Positions 9,266-15,351 of a DNA stretch of 64,000 nt are shown here, one piece after another. Both the position numbers and the translations under genes were made by a program. Within the stretch, counting starts at the first letter, position 1, and each line of letters begins with the position of its first letter. Source of the stretch: Synechococcus sp. BIOS-U3-1 (GTDB lineage Bacteria; Cyanobacteriota; Cyanobacteriia; PCC-6307; Cyanobiaceae); assembly GCF_014279975.1 (NCBI RefSeq), contig NZ_CP047936.1:310001-374000 (forward strand), in the 5' to 3' direction. A model generated the notes under the pieces. That model was not told the origin of the DNA. It saw only the letters and a program-made list of their open reading frames with translations, and ran no database searches.

Positions 9266-9306
9266 GCGATTCCCCCACACTGACTTTGAGCTGTTGGCAG
9301 AGAGTC

Positions 9307-10560
9307 ATGGAGGCGAGACGCAGCGATCGGTTGCTCTGGGTGACGAGTCTTCTGTTTGTGGTCTGGCTGGTCTGGGTGGAAACCAGCTTTCAGTATTTCG
9401 AAGGTTCACTGGGATCGGATCTGCGTCTGCATTCGGCAGGGGTTGCGCTGGTTGCCGGCAGTTTTTTGTTGCCCTACGGCCTGGTGCAAGTGCCCGTTGG
9501 CCGTTTGATCGACCGGGGCAGGGTCGAGCTCTGGCTGCTGCTGGCGGCTTTGGCCGCAGCGTGCTGCAGCCTGGTGTTTGCGAGTAGCGACAGCCTGCAG
9601 GGGCTGCTGCTGTCCCGTATCGGCACTGGCATGGCTTGCGCTGTGGCGTTCCCTGCATCAGCGTTGCTGGCACGTCGCAGCCTGCCCGCAGAACGCTTCG
9701 CTCTGGCGATGGGGTTCACCGATGGCCTGTTGGGGGTTGGTGCCGCCTTGGCGGCCGTCGTGCCCCTGCTGCTAGGCCGCTCCGGCTGGCGGGATCTGGT
9801 GCTCCTGCAGGGTCTGTCCCTGGCCCTGATTGTGGCGTTGCCGATGCTTCTGCTCGGGGCCAGCCGACGCGCGCCTGCCGTGTTGCCAAAGGCAGAGCAG
9901 GACGTTCGTGTGCAGCGCTGGACCAGGGCTGGAGTCAATCGCCTGATTCAGTGCTGCCTTCTCTACGCGTGGGGGCTTGGCTTCGTGTTCGGGATGGCGC
10001 AGTACGGCCTGCTTTCCAGCTTGCGCGGCTGGTCCAGTCCGTTGATGGAGAGTCTCACCCTGATCATGTCGATCGGTCTTGTGGTGGGGATGGTTGTCAG
10101 TGGGGCTCTTGGTGGCCGACCTCAGCAACGTGGTGGTTTGCTGTTGGCCGGCACCGTGATCACGCTGCTCTCGCTGTTGCTGTTGATCATGCCTTCTCTG
10201 CCTCGTGGGGTTCTGATGCTGCCGGCTTTCAGCTTCGGTGTTGGCATCGGTACGTCCGTGCTGGCGTTCCCGATCGCGGAAGCTGCTGCACCTCCAGGGC
10301 AAACAGCGATGACGGTGTCGATCGTCAACACCTCCGGCACGGTGATGGGCGGATTGATGACGATCGTGTCTGGGCTGATTCTGCAGGCCTCTCCTCAGGG
10401 AGACCTGTCGCTGGTGCTACTGATCTATGGAGCACTGGCCCTATTTGGTGTTGCAATGGCCAGCTGGATCAGTTTCAGCTCTGAGCTGGCTGTCGTTGGC
10501 GCCATTCCTTCCAGGCCAAACGTGGTGCGGTCCAGAGACTCAGCAGAACCAGAGGAGTAA
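9307..10560 (+). CDS. Major facilitator superfamily transporter
   Basis: Inner-membrane carrier with about 12 hydrophobic segments over 417 residues. The loop between helices 2 and 3 has the MFS signature in degenerate form (GRLIDRGRVELWLLL), and a polar central loop follows helix 6. Substrate is not recognisable. A TTG start 7 codons earlier is open, but the ATG gives a typical short cytoplasmic N-terminus. Its 3' end overlaps the 3' end of the convergent BCCT transporter gene by 86 bases, so the last 28 codons are shared on opposite strands. Confidence 0.85.
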   Translation: MEARRSDRLLWVTSLLFVVWLVWVETSFQYFEGSLGSDLRLHSAGVALVAGSFLLPYGLVQVPVGRLIDRGRVELWLLLAALAAACCSLVFASSDSLQGLLLSRIGTGMACAVAFPASALLARRSLPAERFALAMGFTDGLLGVGAALAAVVPLLLGRSGWRDLVLLQGLSLALIVALPMLLLGASRRAPAVLPKAEQDVRVQRWTRAGVNRLIQCCLLYAWGLGFVFGMAQYGLLSSLRGWSSPLMESLTLIMSIGLVVGMVVSGALGGRPQQRGGLLLAGTVITLLSLLLLIMPSLPRGVLMLPAFSFGVGIGTSVLAFPIAEAAAPPGQTAMTVSIVNTSGTVMGGLMTIVSGLILQASPQGDLSLVLLIYGALALFGVAMASWISFSSELAVVGAIPSRPNVVRSRDSAEPEE

Positions 10561-12049
10561 CCGGCACCGCCGTGATCACGATGAAGGCTTGCAGTGCGGT
10601 GACCGAGGTGTTGTCGCCCAGGCTGGTGCCGATGCGCAGCAGCACCAGGGTGAGGCTGCCGATCATCAGAGCCCAGAACAAACGCAGCAGCGTTGGGGGG
10701 GTTCGCTGGCCACTGACCACCATGGCTGCGGCATAACTCATTGAGTCGGCACTGGTGGCCATAAACAGCACCACCAACACAAGACCGACCGGAATCAGCA
10801 GCCAGGACAGTGGAAGCTGGCCGAGAATCGCTAGAAGTGCCCCCGACTCCCCGCTGGCGCTGAGAGGGACACTGATGGAGCCAGGGTCGGCGAGTTCCAG
10901 CTGCATGCCAGAACCGCCGAGCAACGTGAACCAGATGTTGGTCACGATCGGGCAGAGGATGGCCACCGCAAGGACCAGTTCCCGCAGAGTGCGGCCGCGG
11001 CTGACTCCTGCTGTGAACAGACCCATCAGGGGCGCATAGCCGAGGAACCACCCCCAATAGAACACAGTCCAGATATTCACCCAGTTGCCCGAACTGCTGT
11101 TGGGCGCAAGGGCCATGCGCGGCAGATTGGTGAGATAGAGCCCAAATGCGCTGATGAAGTGCTGAATCAGCCAAAGGCCTGGGCCCAGCAACAGCAAAGC
11201 AGCGGCGAGTCCGAGGGTCAGCCATACATTCAGCTCAGACAGCCACTTGATGCCTCGTTGGATTCCACTCACGGTGGAGGTAGCAAACACTGCTGTGAGC
11301 AGGACGACTACGAGTGATTGGAGACCTGCGCTGTCCGTGAATGCAGGCAGCCTCCCCGCGGCGTTACTCAGCTGAAGAGAGAGGAAACCCAGGGGGCCTA
11401 CGGTTCCTGCGATGGCCGCCACTACGGAGAGGCCGTCCGCCAGGTCTCCAAGGGGACCTCCCACCCAGCGGCTGGGAAGGATGCCCACCAGCAGCGTTCG
11501 TGGTCGCAAAGGTTCGCCCCGTTGCTCCTGGATCGAGAGGGTGATCGTCACCGTTGTTGCCACCAGGGCCCAGGCCAGGAATCCCCAGTGCAGGAAGCTC
11601 ACGGCCAGGGATGGATCGACCGCAGCAGCTGTTGATCCCTCCACTCCGACGAAGTAGGGCGCGGGATCTTTGAAGTGGAAGAGCGGTTCGGCTGCAGACC
11701 AGAACACACCACCGCCGGCCAGCAGCGTGCAAATCAGCACAGCACACCAGTCGAAGAATTTCAGGCTCGGTTTGGCATCAGCTCCTCCCAGGCGCAAGGT
11801 CCCGATCGGGCTGACCGCCAGCACGATGGCAATCACAAACAGCAGCAGCACCATCCACTGCCAGAGGCCGCCGAGAGCGTTGCTCACGATGGCTTTTCCT
11901 GAGCTGGTGAAATGTTCCGCCAGTTTGAGGTCAATGGCGGCGACGACAAGAAAAACCAGCAATGGCCCTGCGCCGATCCACAGGGGTTTGCGTTGCCACC
12001 ACTGACTGGTTTCAGTCGCGCCGTCCTGGAGGGTTGATGGGTCGGGCAA
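10475..12049 (-). CDS. BCCT family transporter with altered substrate aromatic box
   Basis: Secondary transporter of the betaine/choline/carnitine family, inner membrane, 12 predicted helices. The signature region reads WTVFYWGWFLGY followed by SRGRTLRE, and helix 4 has HWGFLAWALV. Compared with BetP (recalled), the helix-4 tryptophans are kept but its Tyr197 is Val here, and Trp374 and Trp377 are Phe and Tyr, so the substrate may not be glycine betaine. It is the last gene of a four-gene unit. TTG at 12049 is preferred because the outermost start (TTG at 12145) would overlap the oxidase gene by 71 bases; both are weak. Confidence 0.85.
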   Translation of the reverse strand: MPDPSTLQDGATETSQWWQRKPLWIGAGPLLVFLVVAAIDLKLAEHFTSSGKAIVSNALGGLWQWMVLLLFVIAIVLAVSPIGTLRLGGADAKPSLKFFDWCAVLICTLLAGGGVFWSAAEPLFHFKDPAPYFVGVEGSTAAAVDPSLAVSFLHWGFLAWALVATTVTITLSIQEQRGEPLRPRTLLVGILPSRWVGGPLGDLADGLSVVAAIAGTVGPLGFLSLQLSNAAGRLPAFTDSAGLQSLVVVLLTAVFATSTVSGIQRGIKWLSELNVWLTLGLAAALLLLGPGLWLIQHFISAFGLYLTNLPRMALAPNSSSGNWVNIWTVFYWGWFLGYAPLMGLFTAGVSRGRTLRELVLAVAILCPIVTNIWFTLLGGSGMQLELADPGSISVPLSASGESGALLAILGQLPLSWLLIPVGLVLVVLFMATSADSMSYAAAMVVSGQRTPPTLLRLFWALMIGSLTLVLLRIGTSLGDNTSVTALQAFIVITAVPVTPLVLLSLWTAPRLAWKEWRQRQPAQS

Positions 12050-12074
12050 GGGAGATGTCTTGGCGGGAGGGTGT

Positions 12075-13262
12075 TTAGGCGCTGACGGCTTCGCGCTGGT
12101 GACTCCAGCAGGAAAGATCAACAGCAGGGGTTTCGCCGCTGGCAAGTCGTGCCAGCGAGTCGCCGATCAGGGGAGCGAATTTGAAGGCTTGGCCTGAACC
12201 ACCGGCAAACAGGCTCAGCTTGGGGCTCAGGCGGTCCAGCACGAAATTGACGTCGCTGGCCATTGAGTAGGGACTGATCACTGTTTCGACCCTTTCCTGG
12301 ACGCCTTCGACTTCGTTGAACAGGAACGTGTCGAGCAGTTCGACCAGCCTTGCCGGTGGCTCGGTGGTCATGGCATTGGGTTCTGCGACACGTAGTTCCT
12401 TGGGTGCCCAGTCGATGCCAGCCTTAATTCGTGGCCGGCCGTCGTTGGTCTGGCTGAGTACTGGGAAGCCGTAATACAGACCTCCGTCATCGCCGCGTTC
12501 TTTCTGGAAGCAGAACCATTGCGGATAACGATCCGCCAAAGCAGGGTCCACGGTGTAATGAGCCCAGAGCATGGGCCAGACCTCGAGCTTCGGAGCGAGA
12601 CCCAGCGGTGCCAGCATCAGCTGACTCCAGATGCCGCAGGCCACGACCAGCTGACCGGCGGTGATGTGGTGGCCGCTCTCAAGAGTGACGCCACCACCGT
12701 CGGCATCCAGGCTCGCCACCGGGCAATGTTCGACCAGTTGATGTCCGGCCTGACGGGCTGTACTGATCCAGTGGGCCAGCACCTTGTCGCTGCGCACCGC
12801 TCCAGCGGTGGGCTCAAACAGCCCGCTGAAATCGCTTTTTGGTTTCAGCGGAAAACGGGTTGAAATCTGGTCGGCATTCAGTGCTTCATACGGGATGCCC
12901 TGTTCGTCCATCACCCGGCGGGCACCAGGAATCGACCCTTCGATGGTTTCTTCATCCCAGCTTTCGCCGTAAAACAACAACCCATGGGTTTCGCGCAGCT
13001 GTTCTCCTGCGTGAATCTCTTCCTCACGCCAGAGCCTGTTGGCCTCTTGAGCGAGACGGCAGAGCACGGGGTCGGAGTACATCTCACGAAACATCCGGGT
13101 TTCGCCAAAACTGCTGGCCTTGGCATGCGCCAGGGTTTTGGCCTCGAGCAGCACCACGTCGTTGATGCCGCGACGGGCCAGGGATGCGGCACAGCTGAGA
13201 CCGGCCATGCCACCGCCGACAATCACCACCGATGCCTTAGAGGGAAGAGCGGCTGAGCTCAT
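12075..13262 (-). CDS. solA: FAD-dependent amine oxidase of the monomeric sarcosine oxidase family
   Basis: Flavoenzyme of the family that includes sarcosine oxidase, N-methyltryptophan oxidase, pipecolate oxidase and NikD (which makes picolinate). Visible: dinucleotide fold VIVGGGMAGLSCA at residues 13-25, FGETRMFREMY (52-62), and the C-terminal flavin block GGSGQAFKFAPLIG. In well-studied members a cysteine in a CxYTxTxDxxFxxD motif holds the flavin covalently; here the aligned segment is SPYSMASDVNFVLD, with Ser330 at that position, so flavin is probably not covalently bound through it. The start overlaps the dehydrogenase stop as ATGA. Symbol is by family only; substrate unproven. Confidence 0.82.
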   Translation of the reverse strand: MSSAALPSKASVVIVGGGMAGLSCAASLARRGINDVVLLEAKTLAHAKASSFGETRMFREMYSDPVLCRLAQEANRLWREEEIHAGEQLRETHGLLFYGESWDEETIEGSIPGARRVMDEQGIPYEALNADQISTRFPLKPKSDFSGLFEPTAGAVRSDKVLAHWISTARQAGHQLVEHCPVASLDADGGGVTLESGHHITAGQLVVACGIWSQLMLAPLGLAPKLEVWPMLWAHYTVDPALADRYPQWFCFQKERGDDGGLYYGFPVLSQTNDGRPRIKAGIDWAPKELRVAEPNAMTTEPPARLVELLDTFLFNEVEGVQERVETVISPYSMASDVNFVLDRLSPKLSLFAGGSGQAFKFAPLIGDSLARLASGETPAVDLSCWSHQREAVSA

Positions 13263-14314
13263 GCCTCGTCTCCGAAGCTGAGGCCGATCGGATCGGTCTC
13301 CCGTTCGGCGGTCACTTCCACCAGAGCTGCTCCAACGGAAAGGCCCTGATCGCGCTGATTGAGGTAGTCAGTGGCTCTTTGGCGCACCTCACTGCGCACG
13401 AAGGCGTAGACATCCTCCGCTCCAGCACCTTTCCAGGCATCGGGTGAGAAGCGTTCGATCGAGTCAGCGATGACCGCGCCCGCATTGACCAGTGGATCTG
13501 GCAGCACTCGGATGCCCCGGCGACGCAGGTCGTCGGCGAGTTGAGAGCTTTGGAACGGAGCATTGGCCGCTGGGACCACGGATTTGACTCTCAGGGCCGA
13601 GGCGATTTCAGCATTGATCAGACCTGAGATCGAGCAGGGCAGCAGCAGATCCAGCTTCAGCTCCCACCATGGACAGTCCTGAGGCAGAGGGGTGGCACCA
13701 GGGAAGCCTGCACGTTCGGGACTGAGATCCACGGTGAACACAGTCCAGCCGTGCTCAACCAAGACGCGGGCCACTGTGCCGCCGACGGCGCCACATCCAT
13801 GCACCAAAGCTCGGCCGGGTTTCGCGTCAGCCAGGGTTGATTCGAGTACGGCTTCAACGGCGCCGAGGGTGCCATGAGCCGTTGCTGCGCTGGCATCAAC
13901 AGGACTGCCGACTGCTGCCAGCACATGGGGAGTGAGCTCCGTCAGGCGCTCCATGTCTTCCAGGCTGGTATTCAGATCGCAGCCAGTAATCATGGCTCCG
14001 TCAAGAGACTCCAGAAGCCCAGCGGTGACGCTGATCAGCTCGTCCTTCACCGCTTCCGGCTCGGCGGCGCGCGCCACGATCTTGCCGCCGGCGAAACCGG
14101 TGCCGTAGAGATCGTGCTTGTGGGTCATCAGCCCAGCAAGTCGCTGTCCGTCAGCAATGCAGGCCTCATCGCTTGGGTAATTGAGCAGGCGTAAGCCGCC
14201 GTTGGCGGGGCGGCGCGCATCGGTGTTCTCGGCCACCACGAACACCGATAGATGCTCGGAGACATGTTCAGCTAGCACCGAGACGTCCGGCGCAGGTCGG
14301 GTTGTTGTTGTCAT
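13259..14314 (-). CDS. Leu/Glu/Phe/Val-type amino acid dehydrogenase
   Basis: NAD(P)-dependent oxidative deaminase family. Over 351 residues the leucine dehydrogenase landmarks line up: GGLRLLNYPSDEACIADGQRLAGLM corresponds to the glycine-rich and helix region, the two active-site lysines are K66 (MTHK) and K78 (FAGGK), the catalytic aspartate is D113 (TGCDLNT), and the cofactor site is GCGAVGG at 173-179. The pocket segment GTGFAGGK differs from the usual GLNLGGGK, so specificity may differ from leucine. The ATG shares a base with the methyltransferase stop (TGATG), so translation is probably coupled. An upstream extension of 17 codons is less likely. Confidence 0.85.
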   Translation of the reverse strand: MTTTTRPAPDVSVLAEHVSEHLSVFVVAENTDARRPANGGLRLLNYPSDEACIADGQRLAGLMTHKHDLYGTGFAGGKIVARAAEPEAVKDELISVTAGLLESLDGAMITGCDLNTSLEDMERLTELTPHVLAAVGSPVDASAATAHGTLGAVEAVLESTLADAKPGRALVHGCGAVGGTVARVLVEHGWTVFTVDLSPERAGFPGATPLPQDCPWWELKLDLLLPCSISGLINAEIASALRVKSVVPAANAPFQSSQLADDLRRRGIRVLPDPLVNAGAVIADSIERFSPDAWKGAGAEDVYAFVRSEVRQRATDYLNQRDQGLSVGAALVEVTAERETDPIGLSFGDEA

Positions 14315-15351
14315 CAGGCCACTCTCTCCATCATTTGGTGGTGCTCCACGTAATCCAGGCTCCACTCGGTGGGTGCTGCCGCAATCCGTTTCTCCAAGCG
14401 GCTGTATACCTCATCAGCCACCGCATCTCCGGCAGTGCTGGCGAAGCTGTGACGGCTCCAGCTGCGGATCGTGGCCATCAGTCCAGCGGCGAAGGCAGCA
14501 GTGTCGCCATTCTCCTCCCAGCGGCGGCGGTAGGGGCACTTGACATACACCGTGCGCTCATCCACCAGACGCAGTCCATTGCGGTAGGGCGCCGAGCTTT
14601 GGTCTTTCAGTGGCGCCATGAACTCTTCGGGTGACTTGTAGAAGTTCAGCACCGTTCCCTTGCGGTACTGCTCCTCAGAGATCACGCCTTCATCGGCAAG
14701 ACTCTTCCAGATCTGATGCAACTGGTCGTGCACATTGCGGGTTTCGCCGCCGTTGTTGCCCAGATAACGACCCTCTTCATCGCGTGACAGGTTCACCGTC
14801 AGCAGCCGACCACCAACTTTCAGCTCTTTGCTGCGCAACTCCAAGACATAAGTCCAGTCCTTGAGAGCCTGCGCTGTGAAACGTTTCAGAGCATCGGCAT
14901 CACCGGATGCCAGCACGTGGGTATGGGTATTCAGCGGACCTGGCGACTCGCTCAGCCAGTGCATTGCCGTGGCGGAAAAGCCAAAGCTCACCGTGTTGGG
15001 ACCCACTGATGGCTCATAGAAGCTGCGGGCGCTCACCAGCACCGTGGGCTTGGGAGTGCGCGGGATCTGTCGTGCCAGATTTTCGGCGAGGGCAACGTTG
15101 TCGTTGCTGGGCAGATCGTTACCGATCAGGGTCAGGTGCGCCTGAGGCTGGTTGGCGTGCAAGCGGTCCAGCACCTGGTGCCACAGACCCACGGCAGTCC
15201 CTCCATCGGCGGCTCCGTAATCGATCAGCACATGGCTGTCAGCGATAGCAAGTTGGTCAACACAAGTCAGGGCCCAGTCCGAGGCGGCTTCGATGCAAAG
15301 CAGAGCGCCTTCAGTCTGTGCGCTGTAACCGGTGGTCATGGCGATGGCCAT
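14314..15351 (-). CDS. SABATH family SAM-dependent methyltransferase
   Basis: Methyltransferase of the SABATH family, best known from plants for carboxyl methylation (salicylate, jasmonate) and N-methylation (caffeine, trigonelline). Family blocks are clear: SAM loop LIDYGAADGG (43-51), IGNDLPSNDN (76-85), ARSFYEP (108-114) and MHWLSESP (130-137), whose His-Trp pair contacts the carboxylate of substrates in plant enzymes. It is the first gene of the four-gene unit with dehydrogenase, oxidase and transporter; the 77-base gap upstream contains a CTGACA and a TATCTG 19 bases apart that could be a promoter. Bacterial SABATH genes are uncommon and its acceptor is unknown. Confidence 0.85.
   Translation of the reverse strand: MAIAMTTGYSAQTEGALLCIEAASDWALTCVDQLAIADSHVLIDYGAADGGTAVGLWHQVLDRLHANQPQAHLTLIGNDLPSNDNVALAENLARQIPRTPKPTVLVSARSFYEPSVGPNTVSFGFSATAMHWLSESPGPLNTHTHVLASGDADALKRFTAQALKDWTYVLELRSKELKVGGRLLTVNLSRDEEGRYLGNNGGETRNVHDQLHQIWKSLADEGVISEEQYRKGTVLNFYKSPEEFMAPLKDQSSAPYRNGLRLVDERTVYVKCPYRRRWEENGDTAAFAAGLMATIRSWSRHSFASTAGDAVADEVYSRLEKRIAAAPTEWSLDYVEHHQMMERVA

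Follow-up and report, generated by a model that had tools for sequence, protein, structure and literature searches.

A cluster of four genes in Synechococcus sp. BIOS-U3-1 probably makes homarine (N-methylpicolinate) from L-lysine. The genes lie in a 64 kb stretch, hereafter the window, of a 2.71 Mb genome assembled as one contig. On the minus strand, from position 15351 of the window down to 10475, they encode in order a SABATH-type methyltransferase (MT) dependent on S-adenosylmethionine (SAM), an amino acid dehydrogenase (DH), an oxidase (OX) dependent on flavin adenine dinucleotide (FAD) and a transporter of the BCCT family (Table 1). A sequence-only reading of the window had proposed both the cluster and its product. 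The four genes are borne out as minus-strand open reading frames with matches to the expected families. As for the route, each step has gained support beyond the family names, and the three enzymes are kept together into another phylum; the reactions themselves are predicted from sequence.

Proposed pathway

Acting in the deaminating direction with NAD(P)+, DH would strip the alpha-amino group from L-lysine, whose keto acid would close spontaneously to piperideine-2-carboxylate. OX, as a flavoenzyme of the NikD type, would then remove four electrons in two steps to give picolinate. Finally, MT would move the methyl group of SAM to the ring nitrogen, and the zwitterion formed, homarine, would be imported or recaptured by the BCCT transporter. 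We infer the substrates, the direction of DH, methylation at nitrogen rather than oxygen and the transported solute; this route is preferred because it is the simplest one that uses all four genes together with the known chemistry of the producers. NikD is the oxidase that forms picolinate in nikkomycin synthesis.

The available text of a report on nikkomycin describes a conversion of lysine through piperideine-2-carboxylate to picolinic acid by an enzyme of the monomeric sarcosine oxidase (MSOX) type (PMC4021061). The likeness to this NikC (SanL)/NikD route lies in an MSOX-type flavoenzyme for lysine-derived piperideine-2-carboxylate, OX being nearest to NikD. The cluster differs in having a dehydrogenase where nikkomycin has a lysine 2-aminotransferase, and MT in place of a picolinate-CoA ligase. 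As part of the lysine-to-homarine reading, it is thus probably a variant of the nikkomycin route with a dehydrogenase and an N-methyl cap.

Conservation of the cluster as a unit

We searched the same 300 genomes of the family separately for MT, OX, DH and BCCT; because these genomes are related, the counts are not independent trials. MT is found in 53 of them and OX in the same 53, whereas DH occurs in these carriers and in one further genome. BCCT proteins over the Pfam cut-off are present in 52 genomes, all of them among the 53 carriers; the other 247 contain none over the cut-off and a single match below it. The co-occurrence across picocyanobacteria on which the earlier proposal could be checked is therefore found.

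Each of the 52 neighbourhoods fetched has MT, DH and OX side by side on one strand, followed in 50 by BCCT. With start codons chosen by script, an overlap of 1-4 nt joins MT to DH in 46 of the 52 copies, the remaining 6 having a gap of 5, and one of 4 nt joins DH to OX in 48. The arrangement is genuine and not a product of chance. In the window, the last base of the MT stop is also the first of the DH start codon (TGATG), and an ATGA at 13259-13262 joins DH to OX. Of the short overlaps described earlier for three of the genes, these two hold, at one and four bases; the BCCT start is uncertain between a TTG at 12145, inside OX, and a TTG at 12049, shortly past the OX stop. Starting DH at the MT stop gives the length listed in Table 1, and the open reading frame from an upstream GTG at 14365 would give 368 residues.

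The genus of the window genome has MT in all 24 near-complete genomes and in 30 of 31 overall (the copy in genome G239 being split); in the genus of G174 the counts are 17 of 19 and 28 of 34. The window genome contains a single BCCT gene and a single PF03492 gene, both in the cluster. Genome G092 has the four genes together without their usual Ham1 and phosphoglucomutase neighbours. Two Prochlorococcus genomes (29-30% GC) carry MT-DH-OX in another context with BCCT not adjoining, and one of them has a BCCT gene elsewhere; their three enzymes are 51-56% identical to those of the window. Distances among Synechococcus copies of MT, DH and OX correlate (r 0.75-0.91) and are not used as evidence, because they are uncorrected for species history.

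A few copies are broken. At loci L080 (G242) and L083 (G239), MT reads as two pieces in separate frames, with DH, OX and BCCT matching along their length; if this is not sequencing error, both would be natural methyltransferase-deficient strains. We take L080 to be strain CC9902 and L081 to be MIT9515. In L038 (G112) the break lies in OX, close to its start, and the BCCT gene of G273 (L056) holds one in-frame stop. The additional DH stands alone (L165, G030:C23:76572-77573), is 61% identical to that of the window and lies in a stretch of 73% GC; its genome has no MT or OX matches, and it may be a retained or a repurposed enzyme.

The oxidase shares five active-site residues with NikD

OX has the DAO fold of MSOX-type enzymes with the FAD motif GGGMAG. 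Its best PDB match is NikD by phmmer (5e-36), by profile (4.8e-42, against 8.4e-37 for the next family) and, for the predicted OX model, by fold (Z 36.3 over 366 residues, 3.0 Å, 30% identity).

Glu101, Tyr258, Asp276, Arg53 and Lys358 are active-site residues of NikD, which binds FAD covalently through Cys321 and places Trp355 at the flavin. The first five correspond to E108, Y264, D284, R59 and K361 of OX, and they are retained by all 93 picocyanobacterial copies, a number that counts some genomes twice, and by all three copies from Microbulbifer. Eleven of 83 plasmid records of OX relatives served as controls, the frame from Gemmatirosa being wrong or broken and carrying no weight: Glu is found at NikD position 101 in none of the 11 and Asp at 276, a gappy column among them, in one. 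The loop bearing Glu101 is also extended in NikD and OX relative to most of the MSOX-type controls. The OX model has a mean pLDDT (predicted local distance difference test score) of 78, with values below 50 at residues 47-60 and 104-108; because of this low confidence, the active-site reading is taken from the sequence alignment.

The dehydrogenase has a polar, acidic substrate pocket

The PDB chains nearest to DH are of the leucine (LeuDH) and tryptophan (TrpDH) dehydrogenase type. Like the leucine, tryptophan and phenylalanine dehydrogenases of the ELFV family, DH has the catalytic lysines and aspartate, K66, K78 and D113, in 94 of 94 copies, and a Rossmann motif, HGCGAVGG, that fits GxGxxG. 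These residues match Lys68, Lys80 and Asp115 of LeuDH; the side-chain pocket is lined by LeuDH Leu40 and Val294, equivalent to Lys89 and Ser380 of glutamate dehydrogenase.

Unlike that apolar-substrate class, DH carries Asn and Asp at these two apolar pocket positions. Asn38 occupies the Leu40 position in 93 of the 94 copies (the last reads X) and Asp284 the Val294 position in all 94; both are kept in the three Microbulbifer copies. At the first site, the LeuDH, TrpDH and phenylalanine dehydrogenase (PheDH) references and the six readable plasmid controls show Leu, Met or Ala, and at the second Val; neither Asn nor Asp occurs at its site in the six PDB references or in these controls. The PheDH reference stretch ends before the second site, where the plasmid copy of T. 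roseum aligns poorly. The controls were 7 of 62 plasmid records, with the A. brasilense frame wrong or broken and given no weight; in the best 15 of the 62, identity to DH is 27.9-32.1%.

The apolar pocket of the class is thus absent from DH, and an Asp in its place suits a cationic substrate such as lysine. Lysine is favoured because cyclisation of its keto acid gives the six-membered ring used by the nearest relative of OX. The earlier suggestion of a LeuDH-type enzyme acting on lysine agrees with this pocket, polar and acidic as lysine needs, and lysine remains the putative substrate.

Methyltransferase and transporter

MT scores 82.3 bits against PF03492 (gathering score 29.8) and is predicted to have the SABATH fold over its full length (mean pLDDT 76). 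It shares both family and fold with plant SAMT, caffeine-type synthases and the mycobacterial fatty acid O-methyltransferase FAMT; it differs in lying on a bacterial branch, at 15-23% identity to the solved members (Z 27.5-31.9). N-methylation is assigned because the logic of the product demands it, so that MT would be a picolinate N-methyltransferase.

The transporter is, like BetP, TmaT and DddT, a full-length member of its family (421.4 bits against a gathering score of 27). These three, respectively glycine betaine, trimethylamine and DddT transporters, are its nearest solved relatives. It differs from TmaT in a stretch that reads WAWWIAW there and WGWFLGY here, DddT likewise having Tyr at the last place, and it falls below the cut-off of the NCBIfam glycine betaine equivalog NF047988 (293.6 against 650 bits). 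As a partner of the cluster it tracks the other genes across the 300 genomes, as a betaine carrier of the kind supposed earlier should; homarine or another betaine is proposed as the solute. In WH8102 the BetT-like SYNW0229 belongs to a predicted operon, SYNW0229-0233, according to the available text of one report (PMC2874817), and by synteny the genes after SYNW0229 are likely OX, DH and MT. That report used microarrays, and its available text lists no salt-shock induction value for SYNW0229-0233.

Occurrence outside picocyanobacteria

A scan of species genomes gave 91 MT relatives, of which 80 loci were kept. Forty-three are picocyanobacterial, and 42 of these have all three enzyme genes at least partly, the other being a fragment at a contig end. 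Among the 37 remaining loci, one has all three: L143 of Microbulbifer, with 35%, 36% and 44% identity to MT, DH and OX of the window. In the family of Microbulbifer, OX is present in 3 of 144 genomes, each time preceded immediately by the DH and MT genes, one MT copy being cut by a contig end; an MFS transporter gene precedes the triad in two of the three loci. Across 386 genomes of the cyanobacterial phylum, OX matches at E ≤ 1e-25 comprise 21 in the family of the window genome and one weak match outside it.

We incline slightly towards a joint reading of these data. The homarine genes of marine picocyanobacteria would comprise a lysine alpha-dehydrogenase arisen from an ELFV dehydrogenase, an oxidase related to NikD that binds its flavin noncovalently, a bacterial SABATH enzyme acting as pyridine N-methyltransferase and a dedicated BCCT transporter, and the Microbulbifer module would extend homarine or picolinate chemistry to another phylum.

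For thirty-six more distant MT relatives (L127-L163 except L143), the stretches examined, some of them short, gave matches to neither DH nor OX at E ≤ 1e-8; these relatives therefore probably act on other substrates and were set aside as evidence. No MT match was found in phages.

Homarine in Synechococcus and alternative functions

Marine Synechococcus, diatoms and other plankton contain homarine, which is turned over in surface waters of the ocean, according to the available text of two studies (PMC8269262, PMC8269247). The same text calls its synthesis genetically uncharacterised, in agreement with the sequence-only reading; among the literature matches listed, no paper assigned genes to homarine biosynthesis, in a search that left out most subscription papers and all of bioRxiv. 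WH8102 and WH7803, grown axenically on inorganic nutrients, both contained homarine, as the available text of the first study states (PMC8269262). A later correction divides the published values by 25, giving up to 18 mM in WH8102 and about 0.2 mM in WH7803, with homarine at 0.2% of particulate carbon in WH8102; the 18 mM is assigned to WH8102 through the statement that WH7803 held nearly 100 times less (PMC10134881). The abundance earlier ascribed to homarine thus stands as to its presence in both axenic strains and has to be scaled down as to amount.

WH7803 (CT971583.1) carries all four genes with unbroken matches, so that cluster and homarine are found together, as the earlier proposal would have it. 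Presence or absence is not decisive here, because just two Synechococcus strains were measured, both positive; nor does having the genes account for the roughly 90-fold difference between these two. The strains could differ in expression, in competing osmolytes or in how much homarine they lose to the medium.

Several observations weigh against synthesis of homarine from lysine by this cluster. WH7803 has the genes and some 90-fold less homarine than WH8102, and Prochlorococcus MIT9201 is the lone carrier without a BCCT match in its genome. In OX, unlike NikD, the flavin-linking Cys321 is replaced by S330 (Ser in 92 and Asn in 1 of 93 picocyanobacterial copies; Cys in all three from Microbulbifer) and Trp355 by Q358 (Gln in 93 of 93 and 3 of 3; His in plasmid controls). 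The MSOX fold follows NikD closely (Z 34.7, 22% identity), so that the NikD fold match, just Z 1.6 above, is supportive only; overall identity was rejected as proof of class, being 31.7% to NikD and 33.1% to sarcosine oxidase 7exs. The low-confidence residues 104-108 of the OX model include and adjoin E108. In DH, the column of D284 is ungapped in the MAFFT alignment and has a two-residue gap in that of HMMER for 8gxd and 3vpx. The top fold match of MT is an O-methyltransferase, FAMT (Z 31.9), and N-methyltransferases come next (CkTcS, Z 30.1; xanthosine methyltransferase XMT, 29.5); fold was accordingly rejected as arbiter between the two. Family and fold would fit either N-methylation by a SABATH enzyme, as first suggested, or O-methylation, and the nearest solved relative acts on oxygen. 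The kinship of the SolA-like OX with NikD, also part of the first proposal, holds by E-value, profile and fold, and is qualified by the two flavin-site differences and the tie in identity. OX probably binds FAD noncovalently and carries out the NikD reaction, the detail being less certain.

The strongest alternative, which we consider unlikely, is that the cluster makes some other methylated zwitterion or ester derived from an amino acid, by an ornithine or arginine route, as an N-methylated, partly oxidised ring, or as methyl picolinate. The DH pocket residues indicate only a cationic or polar side chain, OX departs from NikD within the active site, and SABATH enzymes yield methyl esters as well as N-methyl products, the nearest solved relative of MT being of the O-methylating kind. 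Against this, homarine itself is present in the strains concerned when grown axenically, and the co-occurrence of BCCT with the cluster favours a zwitterion over an ester.

Improbable, too, is a role of the cluster in salvage or breakdown of a betaine or N-methyl amino acid taken up from outside, with BCCT importing, OX demethylating, DH handling the amino acid and MT in a side role. Characterised MSOX-type enzymes do oxidise N-methyl amino acids, the best NCBIfam model for OX, below its cut-off, is N-methyl-L-tryptophan oxidase, and the solved BCCT relatives are named for such solutes. Yet a SAM methyltransferase is a constant partner, MIT9201 keeps MT-DH-OX in spite of lacking a BCCT match, and OX has the Asp of NikD position 276, where MSOX-type controls mostly have other residues. 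Very improbable, finally, is that other genes make homarine by decarboxylation and N-methylation of quinolinate and the cluster serves another function: this route, proposed from shrimp work according to the available text (PMC8269262), stands as a further point against a lysine origin and would sit well with a strain difference that cluster presence leaves unexplained, but the window genome has no second methyltransferase of the PF03492 family, to which the search was limited, and a homarine-containing strain holds a NikD-like oxidase and a methyltransferase together.

If the lysine-to-homarine reading is correct, the cluster could serve as a marker by which homarine production is recognised in genomes and metatranscriptomes; it would also supply a lysine alpha-dehydrogenase, a pyridine N-methyltransferase from bacteria, and possible natural mutants in which homarine synthesis could be tested. 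The open question of the homarine biosynthesis genes is made directly testable by it.

Gene coordinates and neighbouring genes

Table 1 Genes of the cluster and the adjoining transporter gene, in window positions.
Gene	Product	Position	Strand	Remarks
MT	SABATH-type SAM methyltransferase	14314..15351	-	345 aa; PF03492, E 4.7e-23
DH	Glu/Leu/Phe/Val-type amino acid dehydrogenase	13259..14314	-	351 aa; PF00208 and PF02812
OX	MSOX/NikD-type FAD oxidase	12075..13262	-	395 aa; PF01266, E 3.2e-44
BCCT	BCCT-family transporter	10475..12145	-	PF02028, E 5.1e-126; start uncertain (12145 or 12049)
MFS	MFS transporter	9286-10560	+	convergent with BCCT, overlapping its end

The next gene upstream of the cluster, on the same strand, is of the Ham1 type. 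On the other side, the MFS gene adjoins the cluster in only some relatives. In Microbulbifer, a LacI-type regulator gene is seen by eye further up, beyond the MFS gene (L143, L183).

Related bacterial SABATH methyltransferases recur in differing conserved neighbourhoods (L134, L140 and L144; L149, L150 and L159; L160 and L163), which suggests a diversified family. On a plasmid of Rhizobium sp. CB3171 (L225:7944-10339), an MT relative with 30% identity adjoins, amid transposases, a gene for an FAD-binding oxidoreductase that differs from OX; this is possibly another pairing of a methyltransferase with a flavoenzyme.

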